Source: Thioalkalivibrio halophilus
GTDB taxonomy: Bacteria; Pseudomonadota; Gammaproteobacteria; Ectothiorhodospirales; Ectothiorhodospiraceae
NCBI RefSeq assembly: GCF_001995255.1
Contig: NZ_MUZR01000005.1
Span: 1-41,552 of the forward strand
Direction of reading: 5' to 3'
Length of the DNA stretch: 41,552 nucleotides
The first letter of the stretch is position 1. Each line of letters begins with the position of its first letter. A program made the translations under genes and the position numbers. The notes beneath the pieces are model-generated. The model made no database searches, was not told the DNA's origin, and saw only the letters and a program-made list of their open reading frames with translations. Of this stretch, positions 1,506 to 41,166 are shown in pieces.

Positions 1506-2459
1506 ATGTCGAATCTCTCGATCCGCAATGTCTGCCTGCTGGGCGGAACGGGCTTCGTCGGGCACCACATCGTGGCGCGGCTAATCGACCGTGGACTGAA
1601 TGTACGCGTGGTCACGCGCCATCCGCACCGTCACCGCGAGCTCATGGTGAACCCCGAGGTGGACCTGATCGCCGGCAATATCCACGAGCCGGAAGAACTC
1701 GACCGCGTCCTGCGCGACCAGGATGCCGTGATCAACCTGGTCGGAATCCTCAACGAGCGGGGGCATGACGGTTCCGGTTTCCGCCGCGCCCATGTCGAAC
1801 TGACGGAAAAGGCCCTGGCCGCCGCCGAACGCCAGGGCGTGCGCCGCTTTCTGCAGATGAGCGCGCTGAAGGCCGACATGCCGGACCCGCCCAGCCACTA
1901 CCTGCGGACCAAGGGCGAAGCCGAACAGGCGGTGTTCGCAACCACGGCATTCCCGGTCACGGTGTTCCGCCCGTCGGTGATCTTCGGCCCGGAGGACAGC
2001 TTCCTCAACCGCTTCGCCACGCTGCTGCGCTTCTCGCCGGTGATGCCGCTGGCCCGCGCCGAAGCACGCTTCGCCCCGGTGTTCGTGGGCAACGTGGCCG
2101 ACCACTTCGCCGAGGCACTGAACGATCCGAAGACCTTCGGCCAGGGATTCGAGCTGTGCGGCCCAAGGGAGTACAGCCTGGGCGAACTGGTGCGCTACGT
2201 CGGCCGGGTCTCCGGTCACCGGCGTCCGGTCATTGGCCTGCCGGACTGGGCGGGCCGCCTGCAGGCGAACGTGCTGGAGCACGTGCCGGGCAAGCCGCTG
2301 TCGCGCGACAACCTCGCCTCGCTGTCGATCGACAGCGTATGCACCGGGCAGACCCTGCACTGTCCCACCCGGCTGGAGAGCATCGCACCCACCTATCTGG
2401 GCAAGGGCGGCCGCGAGGCGCGCATGCAGAAACTGCGCACCAGCTACGAGCGCGACTGA
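1506..2459 (+). CDS. NAD(P)-binding epimerase-like protein (atypical SDR, complex I NDUFA9-like family)
   Basis: A 317-residue Rossmann protein of the atypical short-chain dehydrogenase group that includes the NDUFA9-like sugar-nucleotide epimerases. The N-terminal dinucleotide motif is LLGGTGFVGHHIV, followed by DAVINLVGILNE and RFLQMSALKAD, and a YLRTKGEAE segment that holds the family's Tyr-x3-Lys-like active site. ATG 1506 is chosen because it lies just before the Rossmann strand; an in-frame extension to 1440 would add a non-conserved tail and overlap the promoter. It is followed after 16 bases by cca, so the two are probably co-transcribed. The substrate is unknown. Confidence 0.85.
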   Translation: MSNLSIRNVCLLGGTGFVGHHIVARLIDRGLNVRVVTRHPHRHRELMVNPEVDLIAGNIHEPEELDRVLRDQDAVINLVGILNERGHDGSGFRRAHVELTEKALAAAERQGVRRFLQMSALKADMPDPPSHYLRTKGEAEQAVFATTAFPVTVFRPSVIFGPEDSFLNRFATLLRFSPVMPLARAEARFAPVFVGNVADHFAEALNDPKTFGQGFELCGPREYSLGELVRYVGRVSGHRRPVIGLPDWAGRLQANVLEHVPGKPLSRDNLASLSIDSVCTGQTLHCPTRLESIAPTYLGKGGREARMQKLRTSYERD

Positions 2460-2475
2460 GGCGCCCGCCACCGGG

Positions 2476-3699
2476 ATGCACATCTATCTGGTCGGTGGCG
2501 CGGTCCGCGACCGGCTCCTGGGCCGCCCGGTCAACGAACGCGATTACGTAGTGGTCGGCGCCACGCCCGAGGCCATGGAAGCAGCCGGCTATCGCGCCGT
2601 GGGGCGCGACTTTCCGGTGTTCCTCCATCCGCGGACCCAGGAGGAATACGCCCTCGCCCGGACCGAGCGCAAGACCGCGCGCGGCTACCACGGCTTCCAG
2701 TTCAACGCCGCCCCCGATGTCCCGCTGGAACAGGACCTGGAACGGCGCGACCTCACCATCAACGCCATGGCCGAGGACGACGGCGGCGAGCTGATCGACC
2801 CCTTCGGCGGCCGCAATGACCTGGAAAACCGCACCCTGCGGCACGTCTCCCCGGCGTTCGCCGAAGACCCGGTACGCCTGCTGCGTCTGGCACGCTTCGC
2901 CGCCCAGCTGGCCCCCTGGGGGTTCGAGATCGCCGACGAGACCCGCGCCCTGCTGCGCGAGCTGGTCGCCTCGGGGGAAGTCGACGCCCTGGTTCCGGAA
3001 CGCGTCTGGGCCGAGTGCGAAAAAGCCCTGGCCAGCCCTGCGCCGCGCCGGTTCATCGAAGTGCTGCGCGAATGCGGCGCGCTGACGGTGCTGCTGCCGG
3101 AACTGGAACACCTGTTCGGCGTACCGCAGCCGGCGAAATACCACCCCGAGATCGACACCGGCGTACACACCCTGATGGTGCTGGACCAGGCCACGCGCCT
3201 GAGCGACGCGCCCGAGGTCCGCTTCGCGGCGCTGACCCATGATCTGGGCAAGGCGGACACCCCGGAGGACATCCTGCCCGCGCACCACGGGCACGAGGAA
3301 CGCAGCGTCACCCACATCAAGGCGCTCGCCGAACGCCTGCGCATTCCCCGGCGCTACCGCGACCTCGCGATTCGCGTAGCGCGTCATCACGGCCTCGCGC
3401 ATCGCCTGTTCGAACTGCGCCCGAAGACCGTGATGAAACTGATCGAGGGCCTGGATGCCCTGCGCCGCCCGGAGAACGTCGAGCCCTTCCTGCTGGCGGT
3501 CGAGGCCGACTTCCGCGGGCGCACCGGCTGGGAGGAGCGCCCCTACCCCCAGGCCGACGCCCTGCGCCGCGCCGTGGAGGCCGCCGCGGCCGTCAGCCCG
3601 CAAGCCCTGATCGAGGCCGGATACCAGGGCCCGCAGCTGGGCGAGGCCCTGCGCCGCGAGCGCATCCGCGCGATCGCCGAAGCCCTGGAAGGGCACTGA
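2476..3699 (+). CDS. cca: multifunctional CCA tRNA nucleotidyltransferase with HD domain
   Basis: A 407-residue enzyme that builds and repairs the 3' CCA end of tRNAs. The N-terminal nucleotidyltransferase domain starts immediately with YLVGGAVRDRLLG, followed by the ERDYVVVG strand carrying the catalytic acidic residue and by RRDLTINAMA. The RNA-binding neck has EDPVRLLRLARFAAQ. The C-terminal half is an HD phosphohydrolase domain (LTHDLGKAD, His255-Asp256), typical of the gammaproteobacterial multifunctional type with added phosphatase and phosphodiesterase activity. Length and motif order are normal. It is the second gene after the epimerase-like gene, and a new promoter follows it. Confidence 0.96.
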   Translation: MHIYLVGGAVRDRLLGRPVNERDYVVVGATPEAMEAAGYRAVGRDFPVFLHPRTQEEYALARTERKTARGYHGFQFNAAPDVPLEQDLERRDLTINAMAEDDGGELIDPFGGRNDLENRTLRHVSPAFAEDPVRLLRLARFAAQLAPWGFEIADETRALLRELVASGEVDALVPERVWAECEKALASPAPRRFIEVLRECGALTVLLPELEHLFGVPQPAKYHPEIDTGVHTLMVLDQATRLSDAPEVRFAALTHDLGKADTPEDILPAHHGHEERSVTHIKALAERLRIPRRYRDLAIRVARHHGLAHRLFELRPKTVMKLIEGLDALRRPENVEPFLLAVEADFRGRTGWEERPYPQADALRRAVEAAAAVSPQALIEAGYQGPQLGEALRRERIRAIAEALEGH

Positions 3700-3711
3700 A
3701 CCCGGCCCCAC

Positions 3712-3740
3712 TTGCCTGCAACGCGCAGCGGCCGTACTCT
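3712..3740 (+). promoter_or_regulatory. candidate sigma70 promoter for the methyltransferase gene
   Basis: TTGCCT at 3712-3717 and TACTCT at 3735-3740 lie 17 bases apart, 33 bases ahead of the ATG at 3773. Both hexamers are partial matches. Confidence 0.45.
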
Positions 3741-3772
3741 TCACGGTTCGTTGCCGCACAGAGGATCCCGCA

Positions 3773-4429
3773 ATGGATTTCGCCAAGGCCCGGATGAACA
3801 TGGTGGAACAGCAGGTACGTCCCTGGGACGTACTCGACATGCGCGTACTGGGGGTCATGGAGACGCTGCCGCGCGAGCGCTTCATGCCCGAACCCTACCA
3901 GGCCCTGGCCTATGCCGACACGGAGATCCCCCTCGGTCACGGCGAGGAAACCCTGCCGCCGCGCGTGATCGGGCGCATGCTGCAGGCCGTGGCGGCCAGG
4001 CCCACCGATACCGTGCTGGAGATCGGCACCGGGTCCGGCTATGCCACCGCCTGCCTGGCGCGCATGGGCGCCCATGTCGACAGCGTGGAACGCCACGACG
4101 ACCTGCGCCTGGCCGCGCGCAACCGCCTGCACGACCTGAACATCACCAACGCGGCGCCGCGCACCGGGACGGTGACCCCCGAATGGCGTCCGCCGCGGGA
4201 GCGCTATGACGTCATCGCCGTCAACGGCGCCATGACCGAATACAACGACTTCCTGGAACAATTCCTGGCGCTGGGCGGCCGCCTGTTCGTGGTGACCGGG
4301 GAGCCTCCGATCATGGAGGCGCTGCTGGTGACCCGGACCACCGAGGACAACACCCTCCACGAGCAGCTGTTCGAGACCCGCGTGCCGCCGCTGGCCGGCT
4401 TCGAACCGCAACCGGCCTTCGAATTCTAG
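3773..4429 (+). CDS. protein-L-isoaspartate O-methyltransferase family protein
   Basis: A 218-residue S-adenosylmethionine-dependent methyltransferase of the Pcm family. It has the family N-terminus (NMVEQQVRPWDV), the ALAYADTEIPLGHGE segment, and the SAM-binding motif VLEIGTGSGYATACLARMG. The canonical Pcm enzymes repair isoaspartyl residues in aged proteins. This shorter type commonly sits directly upstream of tolC in gammaproteobacteria, as here, and its true substrate is not certain. The gap to tolC (92 bases) holds a hairpin and a separate -10-like element. Confidence 0.85.
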   Translation: MDFAKARMNMVEQQVRPWDVLDMRVLGVMETLPRERFMPEPYQALAYADTEIPLGHGEETLPPRVIGRMLQAVAARPTDTVLEIGTGSGYATACLARMGAHVDSVERHDDLRLAARNRLHDLNITNAAPRTGTVTPEWRPPRERYDVIAVNGAMTEYNDFLEQFLALGGRLFVVTGEPPIMEALLVTRTTEDNTLHEQLFETRVPPLAGFEPQPAFEF

Positions 4430-4454
4430 GCCACCGAAAGCCCTGTCCGTCCCG

Positions 4455-4490
4455 AGCCCGTCCGCCACTGGCGGCGGGCTTTGCTAGTAT
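4455..4490 (+). promoter_or_regulatory. hairpin followed by extended -10 element upstream of tolC
   Basis: An inverted repeat (AGCCCG-T-CCGCC, loop ACT, GGCGGCGGGCT, 4455-4480) is followed by a short T run and then TGCTAGTAT, which fits an extended -10 promoter. It could be a weak terminator for the methyltransferase gene, the start of the tolC transcript, or both. No convincing -35 element is present. Confidence 0.4.
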
Positions 4491-4521
4491 GTAAAGCCTC
4501 GCCTGTCCGGATCGAATCGCC

Positions 4522-5856
4522 ATGAAACGACTGCACCCCCTGCTCGCCGCCGCCGGTCTCGCCCTGTTCACGGCCGCCCCCGCCCAGGGCGCGAGTCTGA
4601 TGGAAGTCTACGAACAGGCCGCGCGCGAGGATGCCGAACTGCAGATCGCCGAGGCGGAATACCGCAGTGCCCTGCAGAACCGCCCGGCGGCCCGCTCCGG
4701 CCTGCTGCCTCAGCTGCGCGGCGAGATCGAGGGCGGTGCGTTCTACAACGACCCGGACGGACGCGACAGCACCGATGGCCGGCAGAGCCGTTTTGCGCTC
4801 TTGCTGGACCAGAGCATCTACGACCGGCGCAACTACGTGGAACTGAGCCAGGCCGACCTGGAGATCGCCCGGTCCGAGGCGGAACGCGATGCCGCGCGCC
4901 AGGACCTGATGCTGCGGGTGTCCGAGGCCTATTTTGACGTGCTCGTGGCCCAGGAAGGCCTGGAGTTCAGCATCGCCGAGCTGGAGGCCATCGAGCGCCA
5001 GCTGGAACAGACCGAACGCCGCTTCGACGTCGGCCTGATCGCCAGCACCGACGTAAAGGAAGCACGCGCCCAGCGCGACCTGGCCGAAGCCCAGCGCATC
5101 GCCGCCGAGAACGAACTGAACGTAGCCCGCGAACAGCTGGCGCTGATCACCAACCGCTACTGGGACGAGCTCGATACCCTCGCCCCCGATGCCGAACTGC
5201 AGCTGCCGCAGCCGCGCGACGCCGATGCCTGGGTACAGCGCGCGCTGGAAAACAACCTGGAGCTGGCGGCGCAGCGCCTCGCCACTGAAACCGCGCGGGA
5301 ACAGATCGAGCGTCAGCGGGCCGAAGGCCTCCCGCGTCTTGGCCTCAATGCCTCGGTCAGCGAGAACCGCTTTCATTCGGTGGACGAACCAGCCATGCCC
5401 CCCGGCCAGAGCTCCCAGTTCAACGACTCCACCGAGGCACAGGTCGGCATCCGTCTGGAGATCCCGCTGTACACCGGCGGCCGGGTGACCGCCCTGACCC
5501 GTCAGGCGCGCGAGGACTTCCAGGCCGCGCAGCAGGGGCAGACGCAGGTCGAGCGCATGACCCGGCGCGACACCCGCAACGCCTATCTCGCCTCGGTGGC
5601 CACCGAATCCCGCGTGCGCGCACTGAACCGGGCACTGGAATCGACCCAGGCGGCGTTCGAGGCCGCCGAGGCCGGGTTCGAGGTCGGAACCCGCACCCAG
5701 GTGGACGTGCTCCTCGCCCTGCGCGAGGTATTCGGCGCCGAGCGCGACTTCGCCGAGGCGCGTTACGACTTCCTCGCCAACACCCTGCGCCTGGAACGGG
5801 CGGCGGGACAGCTCACCGAGGAAGACCTGGAATCCATCGACGCCATGCTGGACTGA
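4522..5856 (+). CDS. tolC: TolC-family outer membrane efflux channel
   Basis: A 444-residue outer-membrane channel protein that pairs with inner-membrane pumps in efflux or type I secretion. A Sec signal peptide (KRLHPLLAAAGLALF, cleaved near AQGA-S) is followed by the two OEP repeats. The repeats are rich in heptad-like Glu/Ala/Gln helices and contain the characteristic LDQSIYDRRNYV and IPLYTGGRVTALTRQA segments. Length matches TolC/PrtF homologues. No adaptor or pump gene is adjacent, so it probably serves several systems, as in E. coli. The stop codon overlaps the next start (ATGA at 5853-5856 region), suggesting translational coupling. Confidence 0.93.
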   Translation: MKRLHPLLAAAGLALFTAAPAQGASLMEVYEQAAREDAELQIAEAEYRSALQNRPAARSGLLPQLRGEIEGGAFYNDPDGRDSTDGRQSRFALLLDQSIYDRRNYVELSQADLEIARSEAERDAARQDLMLRVSEAYFDVLVAQEGLEFSIAELEAIERQLEQTERRFDVGLIASTDVKEARAQRDLAEAQRIAAENELNVAREQLALITNRYWDELDTLAPDAELQLPQPRDADAWVQRALENNLELAAQRLATETAREQIERQRAEGLPRLGLNASVSENRFHSVDEPAMPPGQSSQFNDSTEAQVGIRLEIPLYTGGRVTALTRQAREDFQAAQQGQTQVERMTRRDTRNAYLASVATESRVRALNRALESTQAAFEAAEAGFEVGTRTQVDVLLALREVFGAERDFAEARYDFLANTLRLERAAGQLTEEDLESIDAMLD

Positions 5857-6437
5857 TGAGCACCGCCGCGCGGGCCCGCTGCGAGCGCTCCGACCGCTCG
5901 CCGCTGCTGCTGGTGGACCTGCAGGAGCGGCTGATGGCGGCAATGCCGGAGACCGAGCGCCAACGGACGGTGCGCAACGCCAGCCGGCTGGTCGAGGCCG
6001 CACGCCAGCTGGAGATCCCGGTGGAGGTGTCGCGCCAGTACCCCCGGGGGCTGGGCGACACCGTGGAGCCACTGCGCTCCGCTCTGGCCGAACTGGACGA
6101 ACTCGCCACCGTTACCGACAAGACCGCCTTTTCCTGCTGCGGCGAGGCAGCCCTGGAACAGCGCCTGTCCGGCTGTCGCAGCGTGGTCCTCGGCGGAGCC
6201 GAGACCCACGTGTGCGTGACCCAGACCGCACTGGATCTGCTGGATGCCGGCGTCACGGTGTTTGTGGCGAGCGACGCGGTCTGCTCACGCAACCCCGAGC
6301 TGCGCGTCAACGGCCTCGAGCGTCTGCGCGTGGCGGGGGCGATCATCACCAACCACGAGTCCGTGCTGTTCGAATGGCTCGGCGATGCCCGCGCCGCCGA
6401 GTTCAAGTCGGTCAGCCAGTTGCTGCGGGAGGTCTGA
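5856..6437 (+). CDS. isochorismatase-family cysteine hydrolase
   Basis: A 193-residue hydrolase of the isochorismatase/nicotinamidase superfamily. The Asp-Lys-Cys triad can be read directly: Asp21 in LLLVDLQERL, Lys89 in VTDKTAFSC and Cys120 in GAETHVCVTQTALDLL. Proteins of this short YcaC-like branch are common and mostly uncharacterised; the substrate cannot be told from the sequence. Its ATG overlaps the tolC stop codon, so it belongs to the tolC transcript. Confidence 0.88.
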   Translation: MSTAARARCERSDRSPLLLVDLQERLMAAMPETERQRTVRNASRLVEAARQLEIPVEVSRQYPRGLGDTVEPLRSALAELDELATVTDKTAFSCCGEAALEQRLSGCRSVVLGGAETHVCVTQTALDLLDAGVTVFVASDAVCSRNPELRVNGLERLRVAGAIITNHESVLFEWLGDARAAEFKSVSQLLREV

Positions 6438-6440
6438 CAC

Positions 6441-6587
6441 ATGCGCGTCGTCGGCAATCTCCTGCTGGGGATCTGGCTGGTCCTGTATGGCCTGCGCGGC
6501 CTGCTCGGCCTGCAGTTTCAGTACGATCACTACGTCATGAGCGCCCTGGCACTGATCGCCGGCGTGCTCTTCATCCTGCGCCGATAG
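6441..6587 (+). CDS. small two-helix membrane protein
   Basis: A 48-residue protein starting 3 bases after the isochorismatase gene. It has two hydrophobic segments, residues 5-24 (GNLLLGIWLVLYGLRGLLGL) and 32-46 (VMSALALIAGVLFIL), separated by a short polar QFQYDHY turn, and it ends in Arg-Arg. This hairpin topology with both ends on the same side is typical of conserved small inner-membrane proteins. The tight packing between two genes and the balanced composition support a real gene. Function is unknown. Confidence 0.72.
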   Translation: MRVVGNLLLGIWLVLYGLRGLLGLQFQYDHYVMSALALIAGVLFILRR

Positions 6588-6602
6588 AGAGACTCCGATC
6601 GC

Positions 6603-7454
6603 ATGCGCCTGACACCGGACGAATACCGCGAACTGGACGGCCGCCGCATCACCCTGCTGGGGATGTCGGGTGTCGGCAAGACGCGGCTGTCCAACATGCT
6701 GCGCCAGGAGGACTGGTTTCATTACTCCGGCGACTATCGCATCGGCACGCGCTACCTGAACGAACCGATCCTGGACAACATCAAGTCCCAGGCGATGCAG
6801 GTCCCGTTCCTGCGCGAGCTGCTGCGTTCGGACTCCATCCAGATCATCAACAACATCACGGTCGACAACCTGCATCCGGTCTCCAGCTTCCTCGGAAAGC
6901 TGGGCAACCCGGAGCTGGGCGGGCTGCCGCTGACCGAGTTCAAGCGCCGGCAGGCCCTGCACCACGAGGCCGAGGTGCAGGCAATGCTGGACGTGCCGGA
7001 CTTCATCCACAAGGCGCGCACCCTGTTCGGTTACCCGCATTTCGTGAACGATGCCGGCGGATCGGTGTGCGAGCTGGACAGCCCCGGCGTGCTCGAGACC
7101 CTGGCCGAACACACCATCATCCTCTATATCCAGGCCACGGACGAGGACGAGCGGGAGCTGATCGAACGCGCCGAGGCCAACCCCAAGCCGCTGTACTACC
7201 GCGAGGCCTTCCTCGACCAGCAGCTGGCCGAATACATGCGCATCGAGGAACTGGAGTACGTCGCCCAGATCGACCCCAATGCCTTCGTGCGCTGGGTCTT
7301 CTCGCGCCTGTTCCGGGCGCGGCTGCCGCGCTACGAGCAGATCGCCGAAACCTGGGGCTATACCGTCAGCACCACCGAGGTGGCCCGGGTGCGCAACGCG
7401 GCCGACTTTGACGAGCTGGTCTGCATGGCCCTGGAACGCGAGAGGCGACTGTAA
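6603..7454 (+). CDS. P-loop NTPase of unknown function, metA-linked
   Basis: A 283-residue protein with one clear nucleotide-binding motif, a Walker A (LLGMSGVGKTRLSNML) at about residues 19-34. HYSGDYRIGTRYL follows, in the place where shikimate-kinase-like enzymes have their substrate Asp. Later HTIILYIQATDEDERELI resembles the strand after which these kinases carry lid arginines. It is therefore more like a small-molecule kinase than a GTPase; the G-domain NKxD motif is absent. Its stop codon overlaps the metA start (TAATG), so a role linked to homoserine or methionine metabolism is possible but unproven. Confidence 0.7.
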   Translation: MRLTPDEYRELDGRRITLLGMSGVGKTRLSNMLRQEDWFHYSGDYRIGTRYLNEPILDNIKSQAMQVPFLRELLRSDSIQIINNITVDNLHPVSSFLGKLGNPELGGLPLTEFKRRQALHHEAEVQAMLDVPDFIHKARTLFGYPHFVNDAGGSVCELDSPGVLETLAEHTIILYIQATDEDERELIERAEANPKPLYYREAFLDQQLAEYMRIEELEYVAQIDPNAFVRWVFSRLFRARLPRYEQIAETWGYTVSTTEVARVRNAADFDELVCMALERERRL

Positions 7455-8524
7455 TGCCCCTGGTTGCACATTCCGGACTCCCCACCTTCGAACGCCTGCG
7501 CAGCGAGGGCGAATCCGTTCTGCCGAACGATTTCGCCCGCCAGCAGGAGATTCGCGCGCTGCACATCGGGCTGCTGAACATGATGCCGGATGCCGCGCTG
7601 GCGGCCACCGAGCGTCAGTTCTTTCGCCTGATCGGCGAGAGCAACCAGATCGCGCAGTTCTACATCCATCCGTTCACGTTGCCGCAGCTCAAGCGCGGCC
7701 GGAAGGGGCGCGAGCACGTCGAGAACTACTACGAGGATTTCGAGCAGCTCAAGGAAGAAGGCCTGGACGCGCTGATCATCACCGGGGCCAATGTGACCCA
7801 GCCCGATCTGGCCCTGGAGCCGTTCTGGGAGCCGCTCGCCGAGGTCGTGGACTGGGCCTGGGACAACGTGACCTCCACGCTCTGCTCCTGTCTGGCGACC
7901 CATGCGGTGCTGCAGTCGCACTACGGCGAGCACCGCCAGCACATGGGCGAGAAGCTCTGGGGGGTGTTCCCGCACCGGGTGGTCGACCGCAGACACCCGC
8001 TGGTGACCGGGGTGAACACCCGCTTCGACGTACCGCATTCGCGCTACAACAAGGTCACCCGCGATCAGTTCGAGCACCACGGGCTGCGCGTTCTGGTCGA
8101 GAGCGAAGAAGCCGGCATCCACCTGGGCGCCTCGCCGGACGGCTTCCGCATGGTCTTCTTTCAGGGCCACCCGGAGTACGACTCGATCAGCCTGCTCAAG
8201 GAATACAAGCGCGAAGTGGTGCGCTACATCGAGGGCGACCGCAAGGCCTATCCGCCACTGCCGGAGAACTACCTGATGCCGCAGGCGGCCGCGATCCTCG
8301 ATGAACACCGCGAGCACGTGGAGGCGGCGCTGGAACACTGCACCGAGATCCCGGCCCTGCCCGAGGCCCTGCTGCTGGACCGCCTGGACAACACCTGGCA
8401 CGACACCGCGCTGGCGGTCATCAACAACTGGCTGGGCAATGTCTACCAGCTGACCAACCTCGACCGCCGCAAGCCCTTCCGCGACAGCGTCGACCCCGAC
8501 GACCCGCTGGCCGGGCGGCGCTGA
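7454..8524 (+). CDS. metA: homoserine O-acyltransferase, MetA family
   Basis: A 356-residue enzyme of the MetA (HTS) family, which activates homoserine with succinyl- or acetyl-CoA in the first dedicated step of methionine synthesis. Family landmarks are LHIGLLNMMPDAA, DALIITGAN, the nucleophile Cys146 in TSTLCSCLATHA, PHSRYN and the catalytic FFQGHPEYDSIS. The residue equivalent to E. coli Gly111, which governs acyl-CoA choice, is Thr115 here, so acetyl versus succinyl use is open. It is coupled to the P-loop gene by a one-base overlap. The C-terminus is about 45 residues longer than E. coli MetA. Confidence 0.92.
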   Translation: MPLVAHSGLPTFERLRSEGESVLPNDFARQQEIRALHIGLLNMMPDAALAATERQFFRLIGESNQIAQFYIHPFTLPQLKRGRKGREHVENYYEDFEQLKEEGLDALIITGANVTQPDLALEPFWEPLAEVVDWAWDNVTSTLCSCLATHAVLQSHYGEHRQHMGEKLWGVFPHRVVDRRHPLVTGVNTRFDVPHSRYNKVTRDQFEHHGLRVLVESEEAGIHLGASPDGFRMVFFQGHPEYDSISLLKEYKREVVRYIEGDRKAYPPLPENYLMPQAAAILDEHREHVEAALEHCTEIPALPEALLLDRLDNTWHDTALAVINNWLGNVYQLTNLDRRKPFRDSVDPDDPLAGRR

Positions 8525-36133: not shown

Positions 36134-36209
36134 GCCGACGTAGCTCAGCAGGTAGAGCAATCGATTCGTAATCGATAGGTCGCAGGTTCGATTCCTGCCG
36201 TCGGCACCA
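36134..36209 (+). tRNA. tRNA-Thr (anticodon CGT)
   Basis: A 76-base tRNA with encoded CCA. The acceptor stem is GCCGACG/CGTCGGC, the D arm is TAGCTCAGCAGGTAGAGCA, the anticodon stem is ATCGA/TCGAT around TTCGTAA, and the T arm contains GGTTCGATTCC. It closely resembles E. coli tRNA-Thr(CGT) and reads ACG. It is the last core gene before the integrase and a possible integration target. Confidence 0.97.
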
Positions 36210-36215
36210 AACTTG

Positions 36216-36473: not shown

Positions 36474-37412
36474 CTAGGACCGGCCCGGTTGGGGGAGGTG
36501 GTCAACCAACTGGCGCAGCTGCCCCATATCGGGTTCGACGTATTGCATCGTAGTCGATAGGTTGGTGTGTCCCAGCAAGTGCTGCAGCGCGCGAAGCGGG
36601 GGGTTCTCCTGACGCCCCACCTCGGTCCCCAGCGTATGCCGGAGACGGTGCGGCGAAATGGGCTGTCCCAGTACATCGCCTAGCTTCCGGAAAAAGCCGC
36701 TGACCTGTCCTACTCGGATGCCGTCGCCCTGGTAGCGCGTTTCGCCACGGTGCAGGCCCAGGTTGAACACTTGCGCTTGCTCAAGGCCCCGGGGGCCGCG
36801 TAGCGCAATGGTCCGGTCATAGAGTTCCCGCAACGGCTCCACCAAGGGCGCGGGGATCGGAATATCCCACTCTCGGTGGGTTTTCGATCCCGCTGCTGAT
36901 AGCCGCAGCTCGCCTTCTTTCCAGCACACATCGCCCCAGGTCAGTGCCACCAGTTGCCGCCGTCGCATACCGGTGTAGTAGAAGGTGAGCAGTACCACGA
37001 GCCAGAACCACCGGGGCTCAAGGCATCGATTCTCGGAATCATCGAGCGCCGCGATCGCCTGATCCAGAAGGTCGCGCGAAACGGTCTTGATCCGCCGATC
37101 TTCAGGAGCTGCATCGACCCGTTCCAGGGGGTCATGGCTGATCCATTCCGCTTCCATGGCGAAGCGCCACATCGCGCGGAAATGGCGACGGTAGTAGTTC
37201 CAGGTCGTCGCGCGGGCGCGCTGCAGGACCTGGCTGCGCCATTCCAGCAGCGTGTCGCGCTGAATCTCGTCCAGCGTCCTGACGCCCATGTCGTTTTGAA
37301 ACTGTCGGACAACCTGTTGGTAGCGGATCGCGGTATCGGGCCGCAAAATCCGCTCGCGCAGATAGATCTGCACCAGGTCGTCGAGGGTGCGGTGGGTCTC
37401 CATCGCGGGCAT
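36474..37412 (-). CDS. tyrosine site-specific recombinase (integrase)
   Basis: A 312-residue XerC/D-like integrase. The core-binding SAM-like domain covers residues 8-95 and the catalytic domain 105-312. Catalytic residues are visible and complete: Arg150 in YYTGMRRRQL, Lys177 in GSKTHREW, His255 and Arg258 in SPHRLRHTLGTE, His282 in LLGHTNLS and Tyr291 in TMQYVEP. AGGGGAG precedes the ATG. It points toward the tRNA-Thr gene and follows the csrA-like gene by 103 bases, so both may share a transcript. It should catalyse insertion and excision of the element. Confidence 0.92.
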   Translation of the reverse strand: MPAMETHRTLDDLVQIYLRERILRPDTAIRYQQVVRQFQNDMGVRTLDEIQRDTLLEWRSQVLQRARATTWNYYRRHFRAMWRFAMEAEWISHDPLERVDAAPEDRRIKTVSRDLLDQAIAALDDSENRCLEPRWFWLVVLLTFYYTGMRRRQLVALTWGDVCWKEGELRLSAAGSKTHREWDIPIPAPLVEPLRELYDRTIALRGPRGLEQAQVFNLGLHRGETRYQGDGIRVGQVSGFFRKLGDVLGQPISPHRLRHTLGTEVGRQENPPLRALQHLLGHTNLSTTMQYVEPDMGQLRQLVDHLPQPGRS

Positions 37413-37515: not shown

Positions 37516-37827
37516 CTATTCCGTTCGCGATGGAGCCGAAATTTCCTGGGAGGATTGACGTCGTTCCCGCAATGCCTCGCGCACGATCTCCACGCTCTCG
37601 GGGGCCTCGATGCCAAGGCGCGCCTTGCGATGGTCGACGTACTCGATACGGACGGGGCCGTCCGGGTGGTGAAGGGTGATCCGGCTGCCTGCGGTATCCC
37701 ACTCGACATTGAGACCGGGCGCGCACGCCGACAGCCGAAGGGGTGCTTCCTGGGTCTGCACCGCAACCACGAGGGCGCTATCCCCCACGTACAGCGCTTC
37801 CCCGTCCTTCAGGGTCAAAACCAACAT
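37516..37827 (-). CDS. CsrA-like RNA-binding protein, apparently a tandem fusion of two CsrA halves
   Basis: A 103-residue protein; ordinary CsrA has about 60. Residues 1-37 (MLVLTLKDGEALYVGD ... RLSACAP) align without a gap to CsrA 1-37. A second copy of the core motif (RLGIEAPESVEIVREALRER, residues 70-89) aligns to CsrA 31-50, exactly 39 residues later. The linking segment has strand-like SRITLHHPDG and PVRIEYVDH that can stand for shortened strands 1 and 2 of a second unit. Leu4 and the C-terminal Arg (Arg83, equivalent to Arg44) are kept; Arg6 is replaced by Leu and Arg7 by Lys. The start has AGGAGGAGGAGG upstream. It lies between integrase and relaxase genes. An alternative reading is a CsrA with a 39-residue insertion between strands 2 and 3, as in RsmN/RsmF but longer. 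Confidence 0.8.
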   Translation of the reverse strand: MLVLTLKDGEALYVGDSALVVAVQTQEAPLRLSACAPGLNVEWDTAGSRITLHHPDGPVRIEYVDHRKARLGIEAPESVEIVREALRERRQSSQEISAPSRTE

Positions 37828-37986
37828 TCCTTAATCCTCCTCCTCCTTGCTTCCCTGCCTGTTTTCCAGATCCCTCTGTAGTGCTTCCGAATATTCGGTC
37901 GTTATTATTCCCCTATAAGCCGTGTAGAATATCCCGGTATTCCTCCCGTGTCACATGCCCGTAACTATCCGGGCAAGACGGCTGGC
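37828..37986 (-). promoter_or_regulatory. GGA-rich leader and promoter of the csrA-like gene
   Basis: On the minus strand GTGACA (37949-37954) and TATTCT (37926-37931) are 17 bases apart, a reasonable sigma70 promoter just after the relaxase stop codon. The 159-base gap holds 14 GGA triplets, four of them as the run AGGAGGAGGAGGA at the ribosome-binding site and one in AAGGA directly before the ATG. It also holds the perfect palindrome CCGAATATTCGG (37887-37898) and a GCCCG/CGGGC hairpin near the relaxase end. GGA is the core of CsrA-family binding sites. Confidence 0.6.
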
Positions 37987-39822
37987 TTACGCTTCGGTGG
38001 CGGGTGTCAGGTGGTCGTTGGGTGAGGGTATCCAGTCCGGGCCGAAGACAACGGAGGTGTTACGGATCAGGAGGCCGTTGATCCGGCTGGTCTGGCGTTC
38101 GCCCCGCACCACATAGCGATGGATGTTGGTGCCCTCGGAAGACTTCTCGTGCAGCTGTAACCGCTGAAAGCGCTTCTGAGCGGTGTTCCACGCGTGGCCC
38201 GTCGCGCTCGCAAAGTCACGGAAGATCCCGGGGCTGACGAGCAGTACGCCCTCGGGAACTACGTGGATCCGGGCCTCCCGCGTGTTCACCAGGAGCGACC
38301 CGTCCGCGACACCTCGTCGGATCCATTCGAGACAGGCATCCCCCGGGTCTTCAGGCAAGGGGACGTCCGCACCCGAATCGCGTGACGCCATCGACCGCGG
38401 CGGTGGCTCGGCCTTCGGCTCGTCAGTGGCTTCATCCAGGACGCCGTCGAGCCCCGGAGGGAGCGGCAGATCGTCAACACCGGCCGAAATGGCCGGGTGG
38501 GGGTTCGAGTGGCTTTCGGCCACCACGTCAGTCTGACCCGTCTGGATCGCGACGGGTTCGACGGGGGCCGGATCTGCCGCGGGGGCGGCCGCCTCTTCAG
38601 GTGAAGAGCGGCTTGGCGGTCTGTCGCCAGACTCCGTTGCCCCCTCGGCCGATGCCTCGCCAAGCGGCGTCACGGAACCCTCGAACACCATCGGCATCGC
38701 ATCAGGATCGGACCAAATGCGGGCCACCGGCAGGCGGATGAGTGTCAGCTCGTGCGACCAGCCGTCGCCGGCAACCCGGGCCCTCCAGATGGCGCGGTCC
38801 CCATTGGCGGTCAGCACTCCGTGCTCCTGCAGTGTGTCAAAGATCCGGTCGTTGCTCGACGGAATACCGGGATGCCCCTCCTCACGGAGCTGTGCCCGCA
38901 GCGCGTCGGCCGCGCGCTTCGATACGAGCCACAGATCCGACTCCGTGCGCCAGCCTGCCGCGCCATTGCGGTTCAGCGGCAGATCCTCGCTGCTCAGCAG
39001 GTGCCGAAGCGATGTCATCAGCTTCTCGTGGAGCGGCTTCGTGGGCGTCGGAAGTCGGTCCGGTGATTCGCCGCCCAGGTTTCGCGCCACCGACTCCCGG
39101 TCGGCCTGCAGGATGATCTGTCCCAGCGCCCCCGCATCCTCCATGTGCCCGTGGATTGCATGGATCCACGCCTGCAGCAGTTCCTGGTGTTGAGCGATCC
39201 AGGACATGCCTTCCGGCGGCAGGACCCAATGCGCGACGAGACTGGATACCGGTTCGTGGAGTTTGTGAACACGACCGCGCCTGTACCGCACGGAATACCA
39301 GTGCGCACCCGGTCGCTCGGTCATCGGCCCGAGCCAGGGTTCCCAGCGCCCCAGGCGGTTGCCCAGGGCGTCGTACAGGACGATCTCCTGGTCAACCGCG
39401 GGCTTGCCCACGTCGTGCAGCAGAGCTGCCGAGAAGACGCCGTAGGACCACGCGTCCGCTTCATGGGAAAGCCGTTCCGGTTCTGCCCCGGGCGGCAGGA
39501 CGTACCCCCGGCGGATTTGCAACGCCTTGAGCACGACTTCGAGTCCGTGGTCCAGCATGCCGCCACGGCCCGAGTGGTGGTGAACCTCGGACGCGGGCAC
39601 TTCCTGGACGAACGTCGCGTACTGGCGCAGGGTCGCAGCGACGTACTGTTCGGCGCACTCCGACGGGAGCGCGAGAAGGCCGGTGATCTGGCGCAGGAGC
39701 GCTTGGCGGTGGGGTGGCTGCAGCAGTTGCTCGGCAGTCTGGACTGGAAGTAGGCCTTCGCGGGGTGGCCGCCGCGGCTTATCTTCCGCCGAGTGTTTTC
39801 TGCGGAACCATCTGGGCAACAT
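37987..39822 (-). CDS. MOBH-family relaxase (TraI_2 domain, HD motif)
   Basis: A 611-residue conjugative relaxase that would nick the element at its transfer origin. The N-terminal TraI_2 domain (residues 25-320) has EGLLPVQTAEQLL, the three-histidine motif SEVHHHSGRGGMLDHGLEVV (His81-83) and the HD motif ALLHDVGK (His136-Asp137), typical of MOBH enzymes that bind two metals. A Pro/Ala/Glu-rich linker (about 410-500) leads to a C-terminal DUF1528-type domain (LEWIRRGVADGSLLVNT, VSPGIFRDFA). Length is typical. ATG 39822 is preferred to a TTG 63 bases upstream because it begins at the conserved LPRWFRRK. Confidence 0.92.
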   Translation of the reverse strand: MLPRWFRRKHSAEDKPRRPPREGLLPVQTAEQLLQPPHRQALLRQITGLLALPSECAEQYVAATLRQYATFVQEVPASEVHHHSGRGGMLDHGLEVVLKALQIRRGYVLPPGAEPERLSHEADAWSYGVFSAALLHDVGKPAVDQEIVLYDALGNRLGRWEPWLGPMTERPGAHWYSVRYRRGRVHKLHEPVSSLVAHWVLPPEGMSWIAQHQELLQAWIHAIHGHMEDAGALGQIILQADRESVARNLGGESPDRLPTPTKPLHEKLMTSLRHLLSSEDLPLNRNGAAGWRTESDLWLVSKRAADALRAQLREEGHPGIPSSNDRIFDTLQEHGVLTANGDRAIWRARVAGDGWSHELTLIRLPVARIWSDPDAMPMVFEGSVTPLGEASAEGATESGDRPPSRSSPEEAAAPAADPAPVEPVAIQTGQTDVVAESHSNPHPAISAGVDDLPLPPGLDGVLDEATDEPKAEPPPRSMASRDSGADVPLPEDPGDACLEWIRRGVADGSLLVNTREARIHVVPEGVLLVSPGIFRDFASATGHAWNTAQKRFQRLQLHEKSSEGTNIHRYVVRGERQTSRINGLLIRNTSVVFGPDWIPSPNDHLTPATEA

Positions 39823-39955
39823 CAGGACCGTCCCGAAACGAATAGACTGAATAGAATGCCGTTGGTAACTCGATAGAAGAGCCAAAATCCGTGATCCATC
39901 CCGACACGATTTCTTCCAGCCAGCCCTGGTCGGCTAAGGCCTCTATGGTCCACAC
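39779..39955 (-). CDS. 58-residue unknown protein overlapping the relaxase start
   Basis: A short frame with GTG start at 39955, directly after a run of nine G that can serve as ribosome-binding site, and an in-frame TAG 19 bases upstream of it. The product (start MWTIEALADQGWLEEIVSGW, later ELPTAFYSVYSFRDG) is acidic, poor in Arg and contains three Trp, unlike the Arg/Pro/Ala-rich products of chance frames in this DNA. It overlaps the first 44 bases of the relaxase gene in another frame, suggesting translational coupling. No family was recognised. Confidence 0.5.
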   Translation of the reverse strand: MWTIEALADQGWLEEIVSGWITDFGSSIELPTAFYSVYSFRDGPDVAQMVPQKTLGGR

Positions 39956-40248: not shown

Positions 40249-41166
40249 GTGCTGAAAAGGACCTACAAGTATCTTTACACGCGATTGTCGAAATTCGTGC
40301 TCGGACATGGAGTTTCTGCATTTTCTGACACCATAATTATCGGTGCTTCAGGATACCTTCTGACAAAAAAAGCGTTTGATATATCTATTTCTGGATGGTT
40401 GCTGGAAAACGCTCTGCAGCAGCCTGCCGTCGACGCATATGTGTATTTATCAGGGGCTACTCTTGTAGCAGCGATCATTCTAAAGATGTCGTCGATCGTG
40501 TTCGTTCATTTCCCGGCGGTTAAGCACGCTACGGTTGAGCCTGAAGAAATTTCAGAGTGCTTGCTGGTTATGAACAAGGAAATATTTGGCCACATATCGA
40601 AATGTGATTCGAGTGATCCGCCTTGTTTGAGGGAGATAAGCGAACAGCATTCATTTGATGTGAACATAAGGATGGTGGCGGAGTCCTTGGCCGAACACAT
40701 AGAGAAGTCCGTGGGTGCAATAAAGGTAAAGAGAAAAGACGTTTTCATATCTCTCTATTCATATGATGATGAAAATGGATGCTTGTCGTATGAGCTTCAT
40801 CACGATTCGAGGCGCGACTCGGTTGACTCTAAGGTTCTGTGCATAGATGATGAGAAGTACGCTGAATACGAGTGCATTAAAACCATAAAATCATCTGCGA
40901 GTACTTCATATGTTATTAACAAAAAGAAATATGCAAAAGGAAATTCTAGGCGTCATAAGACTCTAGAGCAGTATATGGGGTGCAAGCTAGAGATGAACGG
41001 ATGCGTCTATGGGTTTTTGAATATAGAGTTCCACAACAATCCTGTGTTCGTCGACGAAGAAGAAATGCAAGACTTTATGGAGGAGAGTATATTTCCCTTC
41101 AAATTGTTGCTCGAGTATCAATACCTAAAGAAAGATTTCTTTGATCGGTTTCATCATTTTGAATAG
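40249..41166 (+). CDS. AT-rich two-helix membrane protein with GAF-like cytoplasmic domain
   Basis: A 305-residue protein of markedly lower GC content than the flanks, with frequent Lys, Ile, Asn and Ser codons. Hydrophobic segments lie at about residues 20-40 (SAFSDTIIIGASGYLL) and 63-88 (LSGATLVAAIILKMSSIVFV). The remaining 215 residues are soluble. The pattern VFISLYSYDDENGCLSYELH, a middle helix (RRHKTLEQYMGCKL) and GCVYGFLNIEFHNN before the end fits a GAF-like sensor fold. The GTG start at 40249 is the only early start codon; the next in-frame Met is at about residue 80. Function is unknown. It is a likely cargo gene of the element, co-transcribed with the next gene. Confidence 0.72.
   Translation: MLKRTYKYLYTRLSKFVLGHGVSAFSDTIIIGASGYLLTKKAFDISISGWLLENALQQPAVDAYVYLSGATLVAAIILKMSSIVFVHFPAVKHATVEPEEISECLLVMNKEIFGHISKCDSSDPPCLREISEQHSFDVNIRMVAESLAEHIEKSVGAIKVKRKDVFISLYSYDDENGCLSYELHHDSRRDSVDSKVLCIDDEKYAEYECIKTIKSSASTSYVINKKKYAKGNSRRHKTLEQYMGCKLEMNGCVYGFLNIEFHNNPVFVDEEEMQDFMEESIFPFKLLLEYQYLKKDFFDRFHHFE

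Follow-up and report, generated by a model that had tools for sequence, protein, structure and literature searches.

A tandem CsrA-like protein on a mobile element of Thioalkalivibrio halophilus: a candidate single-chain CsrA with one RNA-binding face

Introduction

The locus described here raises the question of whether two CsrA units on one chain can fold as the two chains of a CsrA dimer do, and whether a protein built in this way would have one RNA-binding face or two. According to the available part of PMC7652899, CsrA is able to bridge two sites, full repression of glgC requires both faces, the need for both has been probed with engineered dimers in which one face is dead, and Leu4 and Arg44 are particularly critical residues. 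A natural single-chain, single-face CsrA, if true, would allow the both-face question to be tested directly with an evolved protein.

The gene lies in a stretch of 41,552 nucleotides from Thioalkalivibrio halophilus (contig NZ_MUZR01000005.1, hereafter the window), and its product had been taken for a single-chain CsrA pseudo-dimer (the original prediction). The reading preferred here, with a probability of about 0.6, is that the product is a natural single-chain CsrA in which two units fold like the chains of a dimer, with one RNA-binding face, acting as a monovalent competitor.

Results

Gene and protein sequence

The tandem CsrA-like gene occupies positions 37516-37827 and encodes 103 aa plus a stop. 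The protein predicted at this place was borne out by the open reading frame and its translation, by the match to Pfam CsrA and by dN/dS; it is encoded on the minus strand, a point omitted from the original prediction. An open reading frame of 108 aa on the plus strand (37555-37881) was set aside because the Pfam match, selection and synteny favour the minus strand. The protein scores 45.6 bits in two stretches against Pfam CsrA (PF02599, cut-off 27), which places it in the family, and remains below the NCBIfam cut-offs for CsrA equivalogs (NF002469, 37 of 73 bits; TIGR00202, 34.8 of 70.1 bits). It is filed within the CsrA family as a variant and not as a separate kind. A canonical CsrA of 67 aa (L001) is also encoded elsewhere in the same genome, in which no CsrB (RF00018) was found.

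Two R-[LI]-x3-A-P motifs are present as claimed, RLSACAP at residues 31-37 and RLGIEAP at 70-76. Unit 1 (residues 1-37; 37717-37827, minus strand) aligns without a gap with CsrA 1-37, which comprises strands 1-4, and none of 2000 shuffled sequences equalled this match (z = 8.9). The C-terminal CsrA half that had been recognised was found again: residues 69-92 (37552-37623, minus strand), which form the end of unit 2, match CsrA 28-52 and hold strands 4 and 5 with Arg83 as the Arg44 equivalent (z = 9.3, 0/2000 shuffles). The protein has two matches to an HMM of 45 canonical CsrA sequences, at model positions 1-37 and 29-56. Since these matches overlap at model positions 29-37, strand 4 is present twice.

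The middle of the protein (residues 38-68; 37624-37716, minus strand) has no significant likeness to CsrA by sequence alone. When it was compared with CsrA 1-29, 895 of 2000 shuffles were as good, and comparison with the middles of two relatives described below, L010 and L011, was not significant either (1776/5000 and 1250/5000 shuffles as good). With a family profile in hhalign, the stretch from residue 45 onward aligns with CsrA 9-53 at a probability of 97.9; the middle alone reaches only 11.6.

This lack of likeness would fit a rival reading, with residues 38-68 as an unrelated insertion in an ordinary CsrA-type protein whose chains pair like those of CsrA or RsmN and form two RNA faces. 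There is precedent in RsmN, which has a long insert yet is a working dimer (PMC3791407, available part), and genome G325 encodes a CsrA that has an insert and lacks a full second unit (L056). However, an insertion between strands 2 and 3 gives no doubling of strand 4, and an RsmN-like insertion was set aside on this ground. Moreover, the predicted model has strands and no helix in residues 38-68, and at this place L010 contains a complete second unit. An insertion within an ordinary dimer is therefore considered unlikely.

Predicted fold

Structures were predicted with AlphaFold2 from a six-row alignment (A1) for the window protein and a seven-row alignment (A2) for L010. The window model (pLDDT 81.2, pTM 0.70) has nine strands, no helix and a low-confidence tail from residue 89. 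Unit 1 holds strands 2-5, 10-14, 18-23 and 31-35, the middle holds 40-43, 49-54 and 57-65, and strands 70-74 and 81-85 follow. The L010 model (pLDDT 80.9, pTM 0.70) has the same nine-strand pattern and no inserted helix. These two models are not independent, since A1 and A2 share rows, and the canonical CsrA fold may have been remembered by the program. The fold named in advance as contrary evidence, with residues 38-69 inserted between strands 2 and 3, is absent from both.

The sheets of the CsrA dimer are described as b5A-b2B-b3B-b4B-b1A and its mate in the part of PMC3791407 available. The nine predicted strands would correspond to such a dimer minus one strand. In the window model strand 40-43 is predicted to sit at the place of unit 1 strand 5, followed by unit 2 strands 2 and 3; in the pseudo-dimer order it would replace b5A, and b1B would be without a counterpart.

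With VIA-align 2, residues 1-45 of the window and L010 models superpose on RsmA (1VPZ) at 2.5 A over 45 residues, and those of L010 on 2bti, 2jpp, 5z38 and 2mfc at 2.2-2.4 A. For residues 1-83/84 of L010 and the RsmN/RsmF protomers (4kji, 4k59), 50 residues superpose at 2.5-2.7 A with an identity of 40%; the fit of the window protein to 4kji is poorer (56 residues at 4.7 A). A pseudo-dimer of the order in PMC3791407 would be expected to place unit 1 on a CsrA protomer and strands from both units on an RsmN protomer, as these superpositions do. Their Z values are 3.1-5.1, with some unrelated folds scoring higher. In the list for the window protein, CsrA-family chains come only 17th (Z = 3.6) and 47th (Z = 3.1), behind unrelated folds; its match to 1VPZ has Z = 3.1. 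In Foldseek neither model had a match reaching E 0.001. CsrA-family chains took all of the first 13 rows for L010 (probability 0.91-0.99, E = 0.07-0.32) and were missing from the best 50 rows for the window protein. Taken together, the fold comparison supports a single-chain CsrA and does not decide the matter.

Tandem relatives

Homologues were sought in mobile elements, as had been proposed, and relatives with two evident CsrA units were found in several. Further natural tandem CsrAs are encoded next to Tn7-like tns genes, by plasmids of Xanthomonas, by viral contigs (two families of the protein) and in another Thioalkalivibrio. L010 (99 aa, genome G012) has two matches to the CsrA HMM (model 1-40 and 12-53), and its middle was equalled against CsrA 1-29 by only 1 of 2000 shuffles. 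Its gene begins 48 bases past tniQ in a TnsA / Mu-type transposase / TniB / TniQ set; this Tn7-like set, together with the tandem gene, lies at 2280-8067 of locus L073 (G012 C9). L226/L072 (G016) matches the HMM at 1-45 and 4-54, and L110, from Xanthomonas plasmid pXCV183, at 1-28 and 7-57; at least 80% of the L110 sequence is present in 14 plasmid records. The viral-contig tandems include at least L085, L086, L112, L113 and L114 (approximately 1-42 and 8-59), L116 (1-38 and 2-57) and L227 (1-37 and 1-59), the units of the last two being joined without a linker. The L116 contig also bears an integrase gene and a replication initiation gene. Another CsrA-like ORF, further diverged and about 125 aa long, lies directly upstream of the tandem csrA in L112 and L113 (L113 4617-4991); it scores 23.9 bits against Pfam CsrA, under the cut-off of 27, and is possibly also a tandem.

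Two further CsrA-like proteins of 83 aa each, L011 (G000) and L012 (G012), are encoded behind a DEAD-box helicase gene and fall under the Pfam CsrA cut-off (26.5 and 21.5 of 27 bits). Unit 1 of L011 is clear (0/2000 shuffles), and the remainder is not significant (530/2000 and 870/2000). At these loci (L075 263-514, G000 C15; L074 6754-7005, G012 C9) the helicase gene is beside trxA, and also rho in G000, and the locus in G012 adjoins the tRNA-Thr used by the ICE described below.

As read from their sequences, L010, L226, L110, the L085 family, L116 and L227 each appear to have two evident CsrA units, which lends support to two units in the window protein. The pseudo-dimer originally proposed is thus supported by the doubled strand 4, the tandem relatives and the nine-strand models, the middle third being assigned to it by the relatives and models and not by its own sequence. 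In a scan of 224 loci, which were mostly fetched by tandem queries and so form a non-random sample, 12 of 165 distinct CsrA-matching cores had at least two matches, and three of these 12 were orthologues of the window gene. We judge, without a tree, that fusion took place about five times (in the Thioalkalivibrio ICE/Tn7/helicase group, L226, Xanthomonas, the L085 family, and L116/L227), suggesting that tandem CsrA arose several times, beside a transposon, on plasmids and in viral contigs.

Wider searches returned few whole-length relatives. Alignment A1 matched 28 of 369 Gammaproteobacteria at E 1e-5, covering the model wholly or nearly so only in G000 (by two genes), in G022 and in G325, where the match is the CsrA-like ORF with a long insert and without a full second unit (L056). 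At E 1e-6, A2 matched 3 of 398 Pseudomonadota, with whole-length matches only in G000. Alignment A4, searched at E 1e-21 for tandems of the L010, L116 and L226 kind, matched none of the 369 Gammaproteobacteria and none of the 398 Pseudomonadota, samples which overlap. In its control set the tandems L226, L010, L227 and L085 scored 1.7e-40 to 3.4e-21 (L226 and L010 are themselves rows of A4) and canonical CsrA 3.2e-19 or worse; since the window protein itself scores just 7.1e-10, a threshold of 1e-21 would miss diverged tandems. No relatives were found with query P0002 in plasmids or viral contigs, nor with L011 in plasmids. L010 matched 204 plasmid records (25 listed, 18 at 80% coverage), the long ones among those listed being from Xanthomonas; in phage records it had 82 matches, and the 20 listed were all of single-unit length. 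P0004 matched 32 plasmid records, none at 80% coverage, and 34 phage records, with none at 80% coverage among the matches listed (14 fell outside these). No earlier report of such a fusion had been known to the original prediction, and a search of the open-licence PMC literature, with subscription papers and preprints outside its scope, likewise gave no natural tandem CsrA among the matches listed.

RNA-binding residues

Sixteen proteins were read at the RNA-binding positions: the window protein and its three orthologues (the ICE form), L010, L011, L012, L226, L110, L085, L086, L112, L113, L114, L116 and L227. Positions in unit 1 were counted from A-P, or from position 36 in L110, which has no A-P. 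The Arg44 equivalent is present in unit 2 of all 16. At the corresponding place in unit 1 an arginine is found only in L227 and is absent from the other 15, with Lys in L116 and Asp in the window protein, which agrees with the claim that unit 1 lacks this residue. Unit 1 retains Leu4 in 14/16 and Arg6 in 10/16 proteins; Arg6 is replaced by Leu in the ICE and helicase-linked types, in which the Arg7 place holds Lys, Gln or Arg. The window protein keeps Leu4, has Leu for Arg6 and Lys for Arg7, and holds a single set of the Leu4/Arg44 type, namely Leu4 and Arg83. In the RsmN study, mutation of the Arg44 equivalent (R62A) weakened RNA binding more than 1000-fold (PMC3791407, available part).

For strand 1 of unit 2, alignments inspected by eye put Cys (L226), Leu (L110) or Val/Leu (L085 family) at the Arg6 place, and Lys/Arg in L116 and L227. 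It had been stated that unit 2 lacks a proper strand 1. This holds for the window protein but not for L227, which has kept it at the place of unit 1 strand 5, so that the strand with its unit 1 Arg44 equivalent is also strand 1 of unit 2. Recruiting proteins by likeness to CsrA favours an intact unit 2 strand 5, a bias that leaves the loss in unit 1 unexplained. Most telling are L226 and the L085 family, in which the second face can be made out but has lost its arginines. Comparison and prediction together support a one-face, monovalent CsrA, and models and relatives favour the arrangement first envisaged, in which one full face would form from unit 1 strand 1 and unit 2 strand 5.

These residues also bear on another explanation, that the protein is a tandem CsrA which does not bind RNA and acts by protein contacts, for example with host CsrA or an ICE protein. 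The replacement of Arg6 by Leu and the variable Arg7 place in the ICE and helicase-linked types would fit this, as would the diverged middle. However, the two residues reported to matter most for RNA binding are the ones retained (the Arg44 equivalent in 16/16 and Leu4 in 14/16), and a self-paired chain would leave little for strand exchange with host CsrA. Action by protein contacts thus appears rather improbable. For the one-face RNA-binding reading, the Leu at Arg6 lowers our confidence, and RNA binding by the window protein may be weak.

Genomic setting and selection

From left to right the window contains a tRNA-Thr (CGT) gene (36134-36209, plus strand; ARAGORN), a tyrosine integrase gene of 312 aa (36474-37412, minus strand; Pfam Phage_integrase, 71.9 bits), the tandem gene and a gene for a TraI-type relaxase/helicase of 632 aa (37987-39885, minus strand; Pfam TraI_2, 248.8 bits, and TraI_2_C, 103.5 bits). 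The order int, csrA-like gene, traI is common to four genomes, the others being those of Thioalkalivibrio sp. ALMg11, ALE14 and ALJ16 (G002, G021 and G022). In G002 an exact copy (48/48) of the final 48 bases of the tRNA-Thr stands at the far end and delimits an element of 51,529 bp, and in G012 homology to the window ends at 36212, the end of the tRNA. The element carrying the tandem gene is taken to be an ICE inserted in this tRNA-Thr. Past traI (loci L077, L080 and L082) the cargo varies. G002 carries restriction-modification genes, G022 a type I-F CRISPR-Cas set, and G021 a C5 methylase along with a NotI-like endonuclease. Past that cargo are TraG and TraU in G002 and TraG in G022. Two copies of the tRNA-Thr end repeat, about 2.7 kb apart (L225 6006-6050 and 8718-8769, G000 C1), lie at the apparent right end of the window's ICE. 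Near the contig end, at 40249-41166 of the window, is a 305-aa ORF with a G+C content far below that of its neighbours and no Pfam match.

The orthologues in ALMg11, ALE14 and ALJ16 are of the same length and 92-97% identical; in one of the four, Val replaces Leu4. The gene is under purifying selection in these four Thioalkalivibrio genomes (dN/dS 0.08-0.20 across six pairs). A promoter-like site, GTGACA-17-TATTCT, lies upstream (37926-37954, minus strand; one consensus match found against a shuffle mean of 0.1), with GTGACA present in 4/4 orthologues and TATTCT in 3/4. Between this site and the start codon is a putative leader (37828-37920, minus strand), kept in all four, with several GGA over the ribosome-binding site and a conserved palindrome core, CGAATATTCG, which is a candidate operator or hairpin. 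Folding of the leader was no better than that of shuffled sequence (149/200 shuffles as good). An autoregulatory CsrA-type site in this leader is possible; ribosome-binding sites hold GGA anyway.

A decaying csrA fusion without function could account for the diverged sequence and for the narrow spread of the gene, the ICE form being found in 4 of 30 genomes of the genus. However, decay was set aside on the dN/dS values. The equal length and open frame of all four orthologues, the conserved promoter-like site and leader and the same architecture in other elements also speak against it, and we regard it as very improbable.

Discussion

Our preferred reading remains a single-chain CsrA in which unit 1 (strands 1-4) and unit 2 (strands 2-5) would fold together like the two chains of a CsrA dimer. 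Unit 1 strand 1 and unit 2 strand 5 would then form one RNA-binding face, the other face lacking a strand and an arginine. Such a protein would occupy a single GGA-type site at any one time and hinder translation there; its likeliest targets would be ribosome-binding sites in mRNAs of the ICE, perhaps including its own, or of the host. Given what is reported of Leu4, Arg44 and the need for both faces, a one-face CsrA should bind one GGA site and repress single-site leaders at best. Bridging of two sites, as by host CsrA, would be impossible for it, and we infer that for this reason it would compete with host CsrA on shared targets, including multi-site leaders. The position of the gene within the ICE points to a possible role in controlling transfer or excision, as has been proposed for CsrT (PMC7366521).

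A more tentative extension, doubtful as it stands, is that mobile elements (an ICE, a Tn7-like transposon, plasmids and phages) repeatedly fused csrA to itself and kept the same single face, the resulting monovalent CsrAs occupying CsrA sites without bridging them and so naturally competing with, or uncoupling, the Csr network of the host. If true, recurrence on mobile elements would point to a route by which they tap or disturb a global regulatory network of the host.

With the homodimeric translational regulators CsrA, RsmA and RsmE (PF02599) the window protein has in common strands 1-4 and 4-5 and the Leu4 and Arg44 equivalents. It differs from them in having two units per chain and Leu for Arg6, in falling under the equivalog cut-off, and in that its unit 1 strand 5 and unit 2 strand 1 are not recognisable as such. 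Whereas the working dimer of CsrA or RsmA has one unit of about 60 residues per chain, with strands 1-5 and a helix, the window protein has 103 aa and nine predicted strands. RsmN/RsmF of Pseudomonas aeruginosa is likewise a CsrA relative with extra sequence and a rearranged chain, and the strands of both L010 units superpose on its protomer. However, in RsmN an inserted helix separates strands 2 and 3, and the protein forms a dimer with two faces (PMC3791407, available part), while the window protein has a doubled strand 4, strands 1-4 contiguous in residues 1-37 and no predicted helix. CsrT of Legionella ICEs, likened to it by setting alone, is also the product of a csrA-like gene on an ICE with transfer genes; the available part of PMC7366521 mentions no tandem architecture for it. 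RsmQ and other plasmid-borne Csr/Rsm proteins are further homologues from mobile elements, and RsmQ was modelled as an ordinary homodimer (PMC9928087, available part). Xanthomonas WP_041854964.1 (116 aa, pXCV183), annotated as a carbon storage regulator, also has two CsrA stretches on one chain with the Arg44 equivalent in unit 2 only; it differs from the window protein in that its unit 1 keeps Arg6 and has no A-P.
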